Shown one piece after another: positions 1 to 6,124 of a stretch of DNA of 38,069 nucleotides (the stretch's first letter is position 1; every line of letters starts with the position of its first letter). The DNA is taken from NCBI GenBank assembly GCA_001303955.1, contig LJUP01000010.1, positions 1-38,069 of the forward strand. The letters run 5' to 3'. This DNA is from Bacteroides sp. SM23_62. Lineage in GTDB: Bacteria; Bacteroidota; Bacteroidia; Bacteroidales; SM23-62. The notes under the pieces were generated by a model that saw only the letters and a list, made by a program, of their open reading frames with translations, did not search any database and was not told where the DNA came from. The position numbers and the translations under genes are program-made.

Positions 1-1726
1 CCCACATCACCACCGATTCACCCACGATCTCTTCAGGGGTGCTGCCCAGCATTTGAACGGCCGCTTCATTCAAAAGGACACCTGACCTGTCAGAAATCCT
101 GCCGGGATCAAAAAACCTGCCATTTTTCAGGGTGAATTGATACAGATCGCAGAGACCGGGCAGGATCCGGTACTCGGAAATTGTTTTACTCTGGCTCGGT
201 GAATCGCCATATTTCCTGATTCCCTGACCACTGTATCCTAATCCGATGAAATGCCCCGATGCTGCCACCTGTTCCACGCCGGGAAGGTTCAGCAGCCTGT
301 CACGTAAGGCGGGATAATGATTGATGAGCTGTTCGTTAAGATTATGAATCAGTACAATATTTTCCGGATTGTACCCGGGTGATAGGTGCTTCAGATACCT
401 GGTCTGGGCATTGATCCCGAACAGGGTGGTCAGCAGAAAGATGGTTATGGAGATCTGAAATACACTGACGATCTTGAGCAGCATTTTCTTTTCCCCGGCC
501 GGATTTACGGTTCCCTGGATCAGTGGAATCACTTCCGATCTGCTCAGCAAGAGAGCCGGGTAGAATCCCGAAATCAGGATGGTTGCCAGGTAAACAGCCA
601 GCAGTATGAAATAAAGGCTTGGATTGGTTAAAACGGAAATGAATGATTCCCTTTGCATGATCCTTCCGAAATCGGGGATAAGGACCATGGTGATAACAAT
701 TCCTGCTAAAAAGGAGATGGTAACGATGACCAGGGTTTCCAGGTAAAACTGACCGATCAGGGTCTTGCGTTCGGCACCGTTAACTTTCCTGATACCGATC
801 TCCCTTGAGCGCTTGGCCCCATTCAGGATACACAGGTTGATGAAATTAGATAATGCAAGCACCATCACAATGATTGCGATGGTCAGCATAATTAATATGG
901 TTTTCATGTTCCCAGAGGGGGTCAGGTCTTTGATGGCTTCGGTATACAGGTGAAGCCTTTCCAGTGGTTCTGTGCTTGAAGAGAAGATGGAACTCTCGTA
1001 ATTGGCAAACCTCTGTGTAAGCAGCCTGGAATTCTGGTCACGGATGATTTTAAGCACCGACTGGTGATCGGAACCGTCTTTCAACATAAAGTAAGTGAAG
1101 AATTCCAGACCACCCAACCGCTCCAGGTTTGGAAGCGCTTCCATGGGCATCAGTATATCGAATTGAAAATGCGTATTGGCCGGTATGTTTTCGATAACCG
1201 CGGTTACCATGTAAGACTGCTTCTCCATTTCAATACTCTCCCCGACAATGTTATCAGTGCCAAAGATCCGGCGGGCAATTTTTTCTGTAAGGACCACTTC
1301 ATTGATCCCTGTCAGGGCATCCTCCAGGTTCCCGTATATCGGTTTCAGCTCAAAAAGTTCGAAAAATCCGGGATCCGAATACAATAGTCTGATGTCCTTA
1401 AACCTGTTGTTACCGTGATACACTTCCGGACGTCCTGCCTGGTAGACCTGAATGGTTTTCTCTACACCTGCGAGCTGTGGTGCAATATCGGTATAGGCTG
1501 TCCGGAGATTGATGGGGAGGACCAATGACTCTCCCTTATCCGTCCATATGGAATTCAGCCGATAGATCCGTTCGGAGTTTTTAAAATGTTTGTCAAAGCT
1601 CAGTTCATATTGGATAAATACGGTGAGTAGTATGGCTGCGGCCAGACCAAAAGAAAGTCCGGTCATGTTGGTGATAAGTGATACGGAATCACGTTTGATA
1701 ATTCGGAAAATGGTTGTCAGGGACAT
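1..1726 (-). CDS. ABC transporter permease, FtsX/MacB type (3' end outside the window)
   Basis: This is an integral membrane permease of the MacB/FtsX group, which works with a separate ATPase and usually moves lipoproteins, peptides or drugs, or transmits force across the envelope. About 575 codons are visible and the frame stays open to the left edge. After ATG at 1726 a first membrane helix (around residues 17-37) precedes a long extracytoplasmic domain (MacB_PCD type, with the stretch NEVVLTEKIARRIFG). A helix near residue 280 is followed by the FtsX signature LNGAKRSREIGIRKVNGA, then two further helices and the start of a second extracytoplasmic domain. Family members of this layout are about 780-800 residues, so roughly a quarter is missing. 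No ATPase gene is visible, so the substrate cannot be inferred. Confidence 0.9.
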   Translation of the reverse strand, partial: MSLTTIFRIIKRDSVSLITNMTGLSFGLAAAILLTVFIQYELSFDKHFKNSERIYRLNSIWTDKGESLVLPINLRTAYTDIAPQLAGVEKTIQVYQAGRPEVYHGNNRFKDIRLLYSDPGFFELFELKPIYGNLEDALTGINEVVLTEKIARRIFGTDNIVGESIEMEKQSYMVTAVIENIPANTHFQFDILMPMEALPNLERLGGLEFFTYFMLKDGSDHQSVLKIIRDQNSRLLTQRFANYESSIFSSSTEPLERLHLYTEAIKDLTPSGNMKTILIMLTIAIIVMVLALSNFINLCILNGAKRSREIGIRKVNGAERKTLIGQFYLETLVIVTISFLAGIVITMVLIPDFGRIMQRESFISVLTNPSLYFILLAVYLATILISGFYPALLLSRSEVIPLIQGTVNPAGEKKMLLKIVSVFQISITIFLLTTLFGINAQTRYLKHLSPGYNPENIVLIHNLNEQLINHYPALRDRLLNLPGVEQVAASGHFIGLGYSGQGIRKYGDSPSQSKTISEYRILPGLCDLYQFTLKNGRFFDPGRISDRSGVLLNEAAVQMLGSTPEEIVGESVVMW

Positions 1727-2301
1727 CGGTGTATTTTATTGGTCTATTCAAAAGATTCAGGTATTGGGGCTTAAGACTATAAAATACAGGAAAATTGAGA
1801 TATAAATCAAGTGAGCACCCTTTTCCGGAGTGTACTCATTAATAGGTCAATAAATTGGACTGCTCATTAATGATCTGACAAAAGTACTCAGTGAGACCGC
1901 AATTTGCAGTCAGGATTAATGATTTCTGGTGAAATTCTGTCGAATAAAAAAATAAACCCCGCAAAGCATTGATTTGCAGGGCATTGTAACCCAAATATTG
2001 CAGTTCGACAGGGAATCGGGACAGGATTGCAGTAGGCAGATTATCAGCATTTTGAAAGTTGAAACACAATTATTGCAAATAACTTCTTTTTACAGATCAA
2101 TAATTGGGTGAAAGTGGACTATTGTTATTTTGGGCTGGCAAACAGTCTTTCGCTTTCTTGATTATGGTAAACCAATCTGCTTCTGTTTATCTGGATCGGT
2201 GGCTATCCTATGAAAATAACATAAGTATTTGATCCCTAAACACCTATGAGATCAAAGATTGTAACAGTATGTCTCCAGATCATATGCAAATCTCATACGA
2301 T
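1727..2301. other. long non-coding stretch (575 bp) at the edge of the accessory block
   Basis: No convincing gene is present. The stretch holds a minus-strand terminator-like hairpin (1943-1981) and, next to it, a sequence that resembles the 3' end of the tRNA-Glu gene located at 6050-6124. The remainder (2020-2301) is AT-rich with nothing recognisable. A 76-codon open frame over the hairpin is not believed to be coding. Confidence 0.6.
1943..1981 (-). terminator. rho-independent terminator-like hairpin
   Basis: On the minus strand a 9-bp stem (1973-1981 with 1957-1965, one G-U pair) closes a 7-nt loop and is followed by a T-rich tract (1943-1956). The only known minus-strand gene upstream ends at 2302, about 320 bp away, so it may end the cassette transcript with a long 3' region, or it may be a relic of a tRNA terminator: its sequence resembles the one behind tRNA-Glu at 6009-6044. 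Confidence 0.65.
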
Positions 2302-2814
2302 TCAGTTCTTAAATCTAAGGATTACTTTAAGCTCCTCATATACATTGAATACTATAGGGCAGACCGAATAATTATCGATAACCCCTAATAATCTGTAGGT
2401 GAATCCCTTTTTGTGCATATGAGGATATGATCTGCATTCATATGGACGGTCACGGTATATTGCACATTTTTTATTTTCCAGGAACCTGCAAGGCAGATCC
2501 TTAAGTACCCGATCTCCCTCCATGTTTATTTCACTATATTCTCTCATGAACTCTTCAGCTGACATGTTCAGGGATCTGATAATTCTTTTAATATCTTTCT
2601 TTGATATTAATGTTTGAAGCACAATACAGCAATTGGCGCAGGTTGTGCAATCAATTGCTGAGGTATATTTCTGGTACAACCCGTTGACAATTATATCAAT
2701 CCTGTCGGGATCCTGCATTTTCAAATAGCTTCGGAATCTGAAGTTTTCATTCTCATTCAAATTACCAAGCTGTTGTATTTTTACTAGGTCTTTTATCATA
2801 TCATGACTTAACAT
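2302..2814 (-). CDS. YkgJ-family cysteine-cluster protein (CxxCxxCC)
   Basis: A 170-residue soluble protein with the pattern of the YkgJ family (putative zinc- or iron-chelating domain). Eight cysteines are present: C56, C59, C62 and C63 form the CX2CX2CC motif, followed by C109, C117, C127 and C152; the segment CAIYRDRPYECRSYP is typical. The family is thought to bind a metal or Fe-S cluster, but no general reaction is established. It is the last gene of a three-gene minus-strand unit, 31 bp after the 220-residue protein, which itself follows a radical-SAM enzyme. A role in metal supply or in the same modification pathway is inferred from position only. ATG codons at 2814 and 2799 are both possible starts. 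Confidence 0.85.
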   Translation of the reverse strand: MLSHDMIKDLVKIQQLGNLNENENFRFRSYLKMQDPDRIDIIVNGLYQKYTSAIDCTTCANCCIVLQTLISKKDIKRIIRSLNMSAEEFMREYSEINMEGDRVLKDLPCRFLENKKCAIYRDRPYECRSYPHMHKKGFTYRLLGVIDNYSVCPIVFNVYEELKVILRFKN

Positions 2815-2845
2815 TAACTTGTAAGTAATTTCCGGATCATTGTCA

Positions 2846-3508
2846 TTAGATTTCTATACAGGATAACAATTCCTGAATTTCTTCGGGTAATTCTGAATTT
2901 TCTGCAGAACCTTCAGGAAGGTTTACCAGGGTTTCTTCCATTGCATACAAATCAATTATCCCCTTTAGAAGCCTGTAGTCTCCTTTCATTAAATATTCCC
3001 TGTTTTTTTCCAGCAGTCTCAACAGATTGTCAATGCTGTTATCTGCCTCACCATAATCATCGTCGTCATAATCAGAATATTCATCGTAACTATTTTTATC
3101 CTCAGTTATTAAAGCATCCAGTCTGCAGTCAATTGATATTATCAAACGATTATTCCTATGATATATGTTGATCCCCACATCATCTCCGCCCGTGAAATCA
3201 AATTGCGCCATTTTTTGAATGGTTGCCGTATCTGTATTCCATGCCATAACCAGATTCCACCAACCGTAACTTTCCGACCACATGACATCGTAATACTTTT
3301 CCATAAGTGGTTCCCAGCCACCCGGGAGGTCCGCCCACTCGCCATGATAGATAAAACTGGCCCTTCTTTCGGTAGGATTAGCCCGGCTTGATAATCGTGA
3401 AACCGCAGCCTTTTCCTTCGATCCGAGTATCTTATCGATAGCATAGAATTCATAGGATGTAGAGCTGTGATCAGCTGCAAATCCTTTTCTTATGCTGATT
3501 ACCTTCAT
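2846..3508 (-). CDS. uncharacterised protein with N-terminal KGFAADHSSTSYEF motif; candidate radical-SAM substrate or partner
   Basis: A 220-residue protein that I cannot assign to a named family. The first 21 residues contain KGFAADHSSTSYEF (residues 8-21). From memory this resembles an unexplained N-terminal motif (GFVSNSSSSSF-like) shared by otherwise unrelated hypothetical proteins. The body is rich in aromatic residues (around 72-90, several Trp and Tyr), has an acidic Asp/Tyr stretch (about 138-155) and a helical acidic C-terminus. There is no signal peptide or membrane segment, and only two cysteines (C128, C217). It starts 11 bp after the stop of the radical-SAM gene and is followed 31 bp later by a YkgJ-type gene, so the three are probably co-transcribed. 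The position makes it the natural candidate for a protein modified by the enzyme; this is inference. Confidence 0.75.
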   Translation of the reverse strand: MKVISIRKGFAADHSSTSYEFYAIDKILGSKEKAAVSRLSSRANPTERRASFIYHGEWADLPGGWEPLMEKYYDVMWSESYGWWNLVMAWNTDTATIQKMAQFDFTGGDDVGINIYHRNNRLIISIDCRLDALITEDKNSYDEYSDYDDDDYGEADNSIDNLLRLLEKNREYLMKGDYRLLKGIIDLYAMEETLVNLPEGSAENSELPEEIQELLSCIEI

Positions 3509-3519
3509 AATGATATGAA

Positions 3520-5340
3520 TTATGTATTGTAACGGTGACTGTTAAAGATCCATTCCGGATAATCATCTGCTTCCTTTTCAAGCCATTCTTCAATCTCTTC
3601 GGAGGATACAAATGGAACACCACCCGGGGTGCAGCCAATGACATACTGGATTTCAGATATAATATCATACCCCGGAAGGGTATATCCGAATTTGGGTGAT
3701 CTGTTAACTGATCTTGTAATTGAATTCAATTCTTTGATGGCTTTTCTTTCTCCGACACCGTAACGCTCCATATACTCTCTGGCAGTTATAGTGCCTGTTT
3801 TTTTAAGATAATCCAGGATATCAACTGACCTGCCGTTCTTTCCTAATTGTCTAAGTGGTGCAGGCAGGGGTTCAGGACAACCTGGGTCTCCCCCGAGGGG
3901 ATTATGTGCAAAGACCCTGCAACCTCCACACATATTTTTTCGCATACAGATGCCACACCAGCTTTCCTTAATCTGTCTGCCATTCCTAAAATACCGGTAT
4001 TTCTTTAGGATCTTCGATTTGTCCCAGACATCCTGCACGTCATCCGTAAGAATATTACCCGCCTTCATTGCTGGATACACAAGTTGAGAACAGGGATACA
4101 TATCTCCGGATGGAGAGATGGCCAGTATCCTGTCAGCGGCTACACATCCCTTGTATCCAATGTATTTTGCGACATTCTCAGGAACATAGCGTTGTAAAAA
4201 ACCAAGGGCACAATCCGTCCTCAGGTCCAGTTCAGGGTATTTCTTCCTGATTGAAATCAGGTTACTGTGCAGATATAATAATTGTTCCCGGTCAGGCTTA
4301 TCCTGTTGCCAAAGGTTTCTTGAAACCGGGGGTTTATACCTTATAAAAACGATGCGCTTAAAGCCTGATGATAAAATTTTAGATAGGATTTCTTCCAGCT
4401 TTTCGATGACCGATTTGCTGAGTATAATATTTACGCCGGGAGAAATCCCTGTATCTTTCAGAGCGAGAGTGGTATTTTCCAGTGGCCCTTTTAAATCAGC
4501 AAAAGCCTTTCCAAGCAATTCATCGATTGAGAAACCTATCTGAAGATTTTTAATAATCCCGGAATACGGGGATATATCTTTGAATTTCAGATTTTTTAAT
4601 CCGGTTGTTACATGGACGAGCAGACCGGATGCCGCTGCATGGGAAACAATTTCAGGAAGCCCTTCTTTTTCAAAAGGCTCTCCACCGCCAATAGCCAATT
4701 GGAATATGCCCCATCCGGCCAGTTTGTCAACCACCTTATGTGCCTCCTCAGTGGTTAATTCATCACCAGTATGGGGGAATCGCCTGGTGTAGCATTCAGG
4801 ACAGTCTTGCTGGCAACGGTAAGTAAAAGCCCAGTGGACAGTTTCCGGTGCTGAGAGCCATTGTCGCGGGGGATTTTCCTTTAAGGATTTAATGAGAGTA
4901 TGCTTCTTTGCAGGCTCCGTGAAAATATCTGAATCTGTATAATTGCGCTGACAGATCAATCCATTCTGTTGTAATGATAACAGTATCGCCTCAAACTGGG
5001 CATTATTGTCCCGCAGAAGATTATTCTCAACCAGGACAGATTCCAGGTCATTATTCGTCAAAATCCCCTGCTCAAGGATTGTAAGCATTGCAAACGCTTC
5101 TCTGTCAAGTTCAACAATATTGCCATTCCAGGTATTAAAAACCAGTCCACCGAAATACTCCCTGCGCAACCTGACTTTATCAGAAAGACTGAGTATATTA
5201 ACGGATTCTTGATTATCGTTAAGATGCTGTCTCAATTGGAATATCTGATTTTCAGCTTTAATGGCATCAATAGGATAAATCTTCCTAATAACCAACTTTC
5301 CTGATAAAGATAACTTAAAACTGTTATTGCAGGAATGCAA
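3520..5340 (-). CDS. radical SAM/SPASM protein with N-terminal PqqD-like domain
   Basis: A 606-codon frame. Residues about 57-130 look like a PqqD-type peptide-recognition domain (YFGGLVFNTWNGNIVELDRE). The radical-SAM core follows, with the 4Fe-4S motif C176-x3-C180-x2-C183 and GGGEP at 218-222. A SPASM-type auxiliary cluster region carries C399, C417, C462, C465, C471, C474 and C488. A C-terminal extension (about 505-606) has a winged-helix-like part and an acidic end. This order is that of enzymes that modify ribosomally made peptides or proteins. The first in-frame ATG is codon 85, inside the PqqD-like region, so translation must begin at a non-ATG codon: TTG at 5340 (used here), or TTG at codon 16 or 36. 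It leads a unit with the KGFAADHSSTSYEF protein and a YkgJ-type protein. The exact chemistry cannot be told from sequence. Confidence 0.9.
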   Translation of the reverse strand: MHSCNNSFKLSLSGKLVIRKIYPIDAIKAENQIFQLRQHLNDNQESVNILSLSDKVRLRREYFGGLVFNTWNGNIVELDREAFAMLTILEQGILTNNDLESVLVENNLLRDNNAQFEAILLSLQQNGLICQRNYTDSDIFTEPAKKHTLIKSLKENPPRQWLSAPETVHWAFTYRCQQDCPECYTRRFPHTGDELTTEEAHKVVDKLAGWGIFQLAIGGGEPFEKEGLPEIVSHAAASGLLVHVTTGLKNLKFKDISPYSGIIKNLQIGFSIDELLGKAFADLKGPLENTTLALKDTGISPGVNIILSKSVIEKLEEILSKILSSGFKRIVFIRYKPPVSRNLWQQDKPDREQLLYLHSNLISIRKKYPELDLRTDCALGFLQRYVPENVAKYIGYKGCVAADRILAISPSGDMYPCSQLVYPAMKAGNILTDDVQDVWDKSKILKKYRYFRNGRQIKESWCGICMRKNMCGGCRVFAHNPLGGDPGCPEPLPAPLRQLGKNGRSVDILDYLKKTGTITAREYMERYGVGERKAIKELNSITRSVNRSPKFGYTLPGYDIISEIQYVIGCTPGGVPFVSSEEIEEWLEKEADDYPEWIFNSHRYNT

Positions 5341-5414
5341 AAAACAGATAATATTTAGTTATAAAATAGAACAGGGCATTTAGATATTTGGCCCATTAAA
5401 ATGAAGGAATGGTT

Positions 5415-5612
5415 TTAAGAAAGGTCGGATTTTATCAGGGATTCAATTCCTTTCAAGTAAAGTATAGCACTTACTGCATAAAAACATGCATAATAAAGCC
5501 TGTTAACACATGAATTCATGCTTTTATGCTCTGCTAGCAGTTTTGCATCTTTGAAAGTCTCAAATGATCTTTGAATCCGGTAGTTCAGACAATCCGACAG
5601 GTTTTCCGTCAT
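5415..5612 (-). pseudogene. truncated HEPN-domain protein (HepT-like antitoxin/toxin partner)
   Basis: Only 65 codons. The N-terminal helix and the RLYYACFYAVSAILYLKGIE stretch match the first half of HEPN domains paired with MNT nucleotidyltransferases. Full HEPN partners are about 120-135 residues and carry a catalytic RX4HXY motif in the second half, which is missing here. No continuation was found in the next 74 bp in the same frame after the stop. The start overlaps the end of the MNT gene by about 53 bp, the usual arrangement for such pairs. The remnant ends just before the radical-SAM cassette, which may mark an old insertion or deletion junction. It could still be translated as a short protein. 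Confidence 0.65.
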
Positions 5613-5931
5613 GTATTTTTTTCCCTTCTCTCTTGATGCTTTTATAAAAAGGAGTTATATAATACTTGTTTTCCCAATCCTTTTTTGAATAAACGAATAC
5701 CGAAATAGGTTCACCAATTTCCAGCTCCAGGTCAAATAAGTGGTGCCTGAAACTCTGCTCGATTCTTTTATCAACCGTAACATTTTTCAACAGGATTAAG
5801 ATATCCCAATCAGATTCCTTATGTGGGGTTCCTCTTGCATGTGAACCGTACAGGATCACTTCTGCAGCAGGATCCTTCTCCAAAATCCTGTTGTGAATTA
5901 ATTTAATTATATGTTGTTCTTTCTCAGTCAT
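5560..5931 (-). CDS. MNT-type nucleotidyltransferase (MntA-like)
   Basis: A minimal nucleotidyltransferase of about 123 residues. It shows the Pol-beta fold signature GS-x10-DxD in GSHARGTPHKESDWDILI, containing both catalytic aspartates. Proteins of this family paired with HEPN proteins form a toxin-antitoxin pair in which MntA transfers AMP groups to the HEPN ribonuclease. Here the partner is cut short, so the pair is unlikely to work in the usual way. The ATG at 5931 is preferred over an upstream TTG because family members start with a similar helix, and because a TAnnTTTG promoter box (5936-5943) lies immediately before it, implying a nearly leaderless message. Confidence 0.85.
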   Translation of the reverse strand: MTEKEQHIIKLIHNRILEKDPAAEVILYGSHARGTPHKESDWDILILLKNVTVDKRIEQSFRHHLFDLELEIGEPISVFVYSKKDWENKYYITPFYKSIKREGKKIHDGKPVGLSELPDSKII

Positions 5932-5935
5932 ATTA

Positions 5936-5943
5936 CAAAGGTA
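5936..5943 (-). promoter_or_regulatory. Bacteroidetes -7 box upstream of the MNT gene
   Basis: Minus-strand TACCTTTG, an exact TAnnTTTG match, lies 4 bp from the ATG at 5931. If used, the transcript would begin almost at the start codon. Confidence 0.5.
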
Positions 5944-6008
5944 AAAAAACCTGTAATATACAGACCCGAGTCGTAACAAATACAGGTGAGAATTTCATGA
6001 AGCATCAA

Positions 6009-6044
6009 GAAAAAACCTCTGCAAACATTTGATTTACAGAGGTT
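6009..6044 (-). terminator. rho-independent terminator of tRNA-Glu
   Basis: On the minus strand, AACCTCTG (6037-6044) pairs with CAGAGGTT (6014-6021), an 8-bp stem with a 15-nt loop, followed by a T tract (to 6011). It sits 5 nt behind the encoded CCA of tRNA-Glu. Confidence 0.85.
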
Positions 6045-6049
6045 TAACT

Positions 6050-6124
6050 TGGCAGTCCGTAGGGGAATCGAACCCCTGTTACCAGGATGAAAACCTGGCG
6101 TCCTAACCCCTAGACGAACGGACC
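6050..6124 (-). tRNA. tRNA-Glu (anticodon UUC)
   Basis: The minus strand folds into a complete cloverleaf: acceptor strand GGTCCGT pairs with ACGGACT (with a G-U first pair, as in other Bacteroidetes tRNA-Glu), anticodon stem CCAGG/CCTGG around loop TTTTCAT (anticodon TTC), and T-arm CAGGGGTTCGATTCCCCTA. The discriminator G is at 6053 and CCA is encoded (6050-6052). Confidence 0.97.

Follow-up and report, generated by a model that had tools for sequence, protein, structure and literature searches.

The window, a stretch of DNA of 38,069 nucleotides, contains a gene for a radical-SAM/SPASM enzyme that is directly followed by a gene for a 220-residue protein, here called P220, and the locus raises the question whether this protein is what the enzyme modifies. 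As the earlier note had described, three open reading frames lie on one strand with gaps of 11 and 31 bp, the third one encoding a CxxCxxCC (YkgJ-type) protein (Table 1). The enzyme and P220 form a real, widespread and apparently undescribed two-gene unit, of the kind made up of an RRE-SPASM maturase and a dedicated substrate. Our main reading, to which we give a probability of roughly 0.6, is that the enzyme is the dedicated maturase of P220, docking on its N-terminal motif and modifying it.

Table 1. Features of the locus, with positions in the window.
Feature	Position	Strand	Basis
Radical-SAM/SPASM enzyme, 606 aa	3520..5340	-	PF04055, PF13186; AlphaFold model like SuiB
RRE/PqqD-like domain, residues 48-125, R-x-E-x-F-G-G motif	4966..5199	-	Model; SuiB alignment; invariant residues
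Radical-SAM cluster motif C176-x3-C180-x2-C183	4792..4815	-	Invariant in enzyme alignment (24 sequences)
SPASM region, invariant C399, C417, C462, C465, C471, C474, C488	3877..4146	-	PF13186; invariant columns
Family-specific C-terminal tail of enzyme (IQxxIGxTxGGxPFxxxEEIxxWL...YPxW)	3550..3648	-	Conserved in enzyme alignment
P220, probable protein substrate, 220 aa	2846..3508	-	34 homologues aligned; hhalign to wider family; AlphaFold model
P220 motif GFxxDHSSTSYEF, residues 9-21	3446..3484	-	Conservation in 35 sequences
CxxCxxCC (YkgJ-type) protein, neighbour, probably outside the system	2302..2814	-	PF03692

The enzyme starts with an uncertain TTG codon, most homologues beginning about 45 residues later. 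The radical-SAM and SPASM domains that had been proposed from the sequence are both recognised by Pfam: PF04055 matches residues 172-246 above its cut-off and PF13186 matches residues 399-465 with a score of 36 bits, against a cut-off of 21.5. The PqqD-like domain, proposed at the same time, has no Pfam match, but is present in the AlphaFold model of the enzyme (pLDDT 76.8). There, residues 48-125 form strands followed by helices, with some extra short strands; this is the beta-beta-beta, alpha-alpha-alpha order of an RRE (PMC12710340), and the region is included in the structural alignment with SuiB described below. The RRE is followed by the radical-SAM barrel, the SPASM region, an optional helical segment and a conserved C-terminal tail. 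The tail is peculiar to the family and is kept even in members that lack the preceding helical segment. In an alignment of 24 enzyme sequences, the three cysteines of the CX3CX2C radical-SAM motif (C176, C180 and C183) are invariant, as are R59, E61, G64 and G65 of the RRE and seven cysteines of the SPASM region. Seven SPASM cysteines have also been reported for AlbA, QhpD, MftC and the KW cyclase (PMC5491770).

The best structural match of the enzyme model is SuiB, to which residues 49-490 can be aligned with a Z-score of 27.3 over 398 residues, at a sequence identity of 19%. PqqE, SkfB and anSME follow (Z-score of 22 for anSME), and sequence profiles agree with this ranking. No NCBIfam equivalog fits the enzyme: it scores 84, 82, 87 and 79 bits with MftC, GeoRSP, NirJ2 and PqqE, against cut-offs of 265, 400, 500 and 381 bits, and because it is about equally similar to NirJ2 and to the mycofactocin maturases, homology does not fix its chemistry. 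A role in defence was considered and rejected, the radical-SAM core being only weakly similar to viperin and P220 showing no such similarity.

P220 consists of an N-terminal extension, a domain formed by residues 18-135, an acidic linker and C-terminal helices. In its AlphaFold model (pLDDT 78.6), residues 1-13 are disordered and the first beta-strand is made up of residues 17-22. P220 has no match in Pfam or NCBIfam, and a structure search returned no PDB match below an E-value of 0.01; the best re-aligned match, with a Z-score of 5.1, is not meaningful. Together with the lack of a fitting NCBIfam equivalog for the enzyme, this agrees with the earlier note, which could put no name to the system. 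In the open-access literature, no paper was found with the P220 motif, nor one combining radical SAM, PqqD and YkgJ. A suspected link to other N-terminal serine-rich motifs (NSSSSHS) was dropped when a literature search gave no paper.

The motif that had been noticed within the first 21 residues of P220 turns out to be exceptionally conserved. Residues 8-21 read KGFAADHSSTSYEF, and the consensus of the N-terminal tail is MKIISxRKGFxxDHSSTS. In an alignment of 35 sequences, G9, F10 and D13 to F21 are invariant, although the invariance of residues 13-20 is partly built in, since DHSSTSYE was the search pattern for most loci. Members found by profile, and thus unbiased by the motif, contain DHSSTSYQF in genome G535 and DHSSTSYEF in about eight others. 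Outside the search handle, residues 1-12 have a mean pairwise identity of 0.66, versus 0.54 for residues 21-135; conservation is seen in the C-terminal part of P220 as well. Synonymous codons vary freely over D13-F21, so the conservation is at the protein level. The class of serine codon is fixed, being always AGY at S15 and always TCN at S16 and S18, as it would be if intermediate residues were not tolerated. The motif sits at P220 in all 39 genomes in which it was scanned, with a single pattern match per genome, except for G454, which has two paralogues with it, and two genomes with one extra match each, where the extra match reads through a stop or is out of frame. There is no cysteine in the tail, and C128 further along the chain, the only near-invariant cysteine, is missing from the proteins of loci L031, L034 and L035.

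The 39 P220 loci were obtained by scanning 84,980 species genomes, most of them with the pattern DHSSTSYE; the search patterns were steered by the alignment of P220 and one made-up variant, used as a probe only. Going by the titles of their records, the loci span several groups of Bacillota, Elusimicrobia, Aminicenantes, KSB1, Lentisphaerae, Omnitrophota, Aerophobetes, Poribacteria, Mcinerneyibacteriota, Armatimonadetes, Actinomycetota and one deltaproteobacterium, so that the pair is found in about a dozen phyla, mostly in anaerobes. Most are from metagenome assemblies, the isolates being Paradesulfitobacterium, Fuchsiella and two Natroniella. An enzyme homologue (33-45% identity) is located directly upstream of P220 on the same strand in 36 of the 39 loci, far beyond chance, as one would expect of the dedicated partners that the earlier note had proposed. 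The two genes usually overlap by up to 44 bp or are separated by up to 54 bp, with a spacing of about 0.2 kb in L025. Of the three exceptions, L039 begins at a contig edge, L042 has a 44-residue P220 fragment, upstream of which a remnant of the C-terminal tail of the enzyme survives, and L028 is a P220 paralogue in G454, the enzyme of which is on another contig. A decaying copy is seen in L038 (9880-10130), where, through an internal deletion, the enzyme gene runs from its middle straight into the beginning of P220.

Co-occurrence was analysed with profiles (E-value of at most 1e-5 for P220 and at most 1e-50 for the enzyme) in sets of genomes chosen independently of the motif. In one phylum (299 genomes), P220 and the enzyme occur in the same five genomes and 294 have neither, a result that mostly restates linkage, since four of the five positive genomes carry linked pairs. 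In G535, the enzyme and P220 are on different contigs, which shows that the association is not only a matter of operon inheritance. Among 83 genomes of one class, five have an intact P220 (two of these reads being truncated or interrupted towards the end of the gene), and all five have the enzyme. In the same class, G977, G995 and G990 lack the enzyme and retain only short P220 fragments among stop codons, while in G994 the enzyme is intact and P220 degenerates after some 47 residues. In a third phylum (199 genomes), neither gene occurs outside the seed genome; one other radical-SAM protein, at 169 bits and with no P220, looks like a distant relative. In the samples searched, no intact P220 was found in enzyme-free genomes, the wide occurrence of P220 without a radical-SAM neighbour, together with no mass change, being one of the two outcomes that the earlier note had named as speaking against its proposal. 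The distance matrices of the two proteins correlate with a Spearman coefficient of 0.68, reached in none of 5000 permutations, and their trees share 11 of 19 splits. Pairing, co-occurrence and congruent distances thus make the enzyme and P220 a functional couple, beyond mere neighbourhood. P220 was used as a single-sequence query against viral contigs, phages, 60 relatives and 395 genomes from the phylum of the window; no other member turned up, so in that phylum the gene is rare or transferred.

The domain of P220 is shared with a wider family of proteins of about 370 residues (MSEYQYYEFQAIDRPL...; loci L002, L003, L004 and L053), which occurs in cyanobacteria, Streptomyces, Sinorhizobium and Poribacteria and has no Pfam or NCBIfam model. 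With hhalign, columns 18-223 of the P220 alignment match the first 188 residues of this family with a probability of 99.6% and an E-value of 5e-24. The wider family lacks the motif: its proteins start at a position corresponding to roughly residue 13 of P220, and residues 1-17 have no counterpart. No radical-SAM gene was found near its genes in the three plasmid neighbourhoods examined. As the alignment starts at residue 18, the SYEF end of the motif corresponds to the first strand of the shared domain, and about residues 1-17/18 of P220 are an addition particular to the enzyme-linked branch.

In the mechanism that we propose, the RRE of the enzyme would recognise the flexible tail of P220 (residues 1-12), and docking would place D13-H14-S15-S16-T17-S18-Y19 at the radical-SAM site. 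The 5'-deoxyadenosyl radical would abstract a hydrogen from the motif and the auxiliary cluster would accept the second electron, for a net two-electron oxidation of P220. The likeliest product would be a short C-C cross-link, for example from His14 to the C-beta of Ser16 or via Tyr19, or else an oxidised serine or threonine; oxidation of a serine, the reaction performed by anSME, would change the mass by -2 Da just as a cross-link would. Thioether chemistry is unlikely, since the tail contains no cysteine. The modified tail would remain on P220 and may equip its domain for a role. A fuller version of this proposal, to which we give even odds, is that the DHSSTSY segment of a folded, cytosolic P220 permanently acquires a cross-link or an oxidised residue through the RRE-guided SPASM enzyme, giving rise to a new protein-derived functional group, and that the module has spread by transfer through about a dozen phyla.

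Peptides or proteins were the substrates of the SPASM enzymes that had been characterised by 2017 (PMC5491770), while some SPASM enzymes use small molecules, AhbD among them (PMC10452713). The latter count against a maturase, as do the paralogues of G454, two of which keep the motif away from the enzyme while one has DRSSSSYEF and one has lost the motif. The existence of small-molecule SPASM enzymes also leaves room for P220 to be an obligate partner of the enzyme, be it an adaptor, an electron-transfer protein or a scaffold, with its tail docked on the RRE and the true substrate elsewhere or a small molecule. Pairing and co-occurrence would look identical in that case, and conservation of the C-terminal part of P220 would fit as well. 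Nevertheless, no third conserved gene accompanies the pair, the tail motif is rich in residues that are known radical-SAM targets (Phe, His, Ser, Thr and Tyr) and is missing from the enzyme-free relatives, and the strict conservation of D13-Y19 is not obviously needed for docking alone. We therefore regard P220 as a mere partner as rather unlikely, and modification of P220 itself as the better reading.

An RRE combined with a SPASM enzyme is a usual architecture of RiPP pathways (PMC7470986), in which case the N-terminus of P220, or the product of an overlooked short gene, would be released as a modified peptide. Within 1.5 kb of the pairs there are 1071 small open reading frames, and conservation among them is confined to one cluster from three loci that looks like an antisense frame of a flanking gene; the lack of a short precursor gene that had been remarked on in the window thus extends to the homologues. 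Nor is a conserved peptidase or exporter present near the pairs, and the motif is N-terminal, ahead of a folded domain that is itself conserved, all of which makes a released peptide quite improbable. The flanks of the pairs contain an accessory-genome mix that includes toxin-antitoxin and restriction families. A recurring neighbour, a protein of 360-480 residues starting with MLVLNCTKKL..., is located near four pairs (L034, L038, L040 and L020), and two flanking proteins of those pairs match PRiA4_ORF3.

The third protein in the window matches PF03692 with an E-value of 2.5e-13. In the earlier note it was counted as part of the system, with a possible role in handling the metal or cluster. 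The tight spacing in the window would suit such a triad, and a related YkgJ protein (37% identity) adjoins the pair in L015, in a different gene order. These are the only two loci in which YkgJ adjoins the pair, which makes it at most an occasional companion; it is missing beside the other loci, and a relative on a Streptococcus plasmid has no radical-SAM neighbour in the 10 kb examined. The idea of a three-gene system, already weakened by these observations, is very unlikely to hold. Two unrelated genes might also have been transferred together by accident in a mobile island, as the AT-rich window locus beside a tRNA-Glu gene and the toxin-antitoxin or restriction genes near some homologues could suggest; this is contradicted by co-occurrence of the unlinked genes in G535, by the decay of P220 in genomes that lack the enzyme and by congruent trees, and may be set aside as highly improbable.

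When compared with known systems, the enzyme has the same order of RRE, radical-SAM and SPASM domains as SuiB/StrB, the KW cyclase of streptide. However, SuiB makes a Lys-Trp cross-link in a short peptide, while the partner of our enzyme is a protein of 220 residues without that motif, and the enzyme has the conserved C-terminal tail in addition. PqqE/PqqD and MftC/MftB likewise combine a recognition unit with a SPASM enzyme, and MftC and PqqE are among the best NCBIfam matches, but their systems act on short peptides and their equivalog cut-offs are far above the scores of the enzyme. The SPASM enzyme anSME does target a serine or cysteine of a full-length protein; it has eight SPASM cysteines where our enzyme has seven conserved ones, and P220 contains neither a sulfatase domain nor CxPxR or SxPxR, its motif being DHSSTSYEF. 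To our knowledge, anSME has no RRE. The cross-links made by the SPASM enzyme QhpD, too, are in a protein and not in a released peptide (PMC11002830). QhpD and the ranthipeptide and sactipeptide maturases need substrate cysteines for their thioethers, unlike what the tail of P220 offers, with C128 not being universal. The cyclophane synthases of triceptides (XncB, OscB, MscB and HaaB) join an aromatic residue i to the C-beta of residue i+2, in pairs that include Phe-Ser, His-Ala and Tyr-Asp (PMC11002830). By their sequence, H14-S15-S16 and Y19-E20-F21 of P220 could fit this spacing, although the triceptide synthases act on short precursor peptides and P220 is a full-size protein.

The enzyme/P220 unit is unusual in having a folded protein as its apparent substrate. 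Among the SPASM radical-SAM enzymes, few cases of action on a full-size protein are known, those named here being anSME and QhpD. If a change to P220 is found, it would be a new protein modification, would give meaning to a family without a Pfam or NCBIfam model and would mean that RRE guidance is used beyond short-peptide pathways. The compact two-gene module and the fixed 13-residue motif make the question of modification testable. The Clostridiales assembly G454 (loci L028, L039, L054, L055 and L069) has four P220 paralogues, two with the motif, one with DRSSSSYEF and one without the motif, a natural experiment on which residues are important.

Directly upstream of the enzyme gene in the window, a gene pair for an MNT-like nucleotidyltransferase and a HEPN protein (5415-5979, minus strand) is a candidate toxin-antitoxin unit, and nucleotidyltransferase-type genes also adjoin the enzyme/P220 pair in L036/L061 (G470). 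The region 1501-6124, which includes the cassette, has a GC content of 0.37-0.43, versus about 0.44-0.52 elsewhere in the window; it ends at a tRNA-Glu gene (6050-6124) and resembles a small transferred island.
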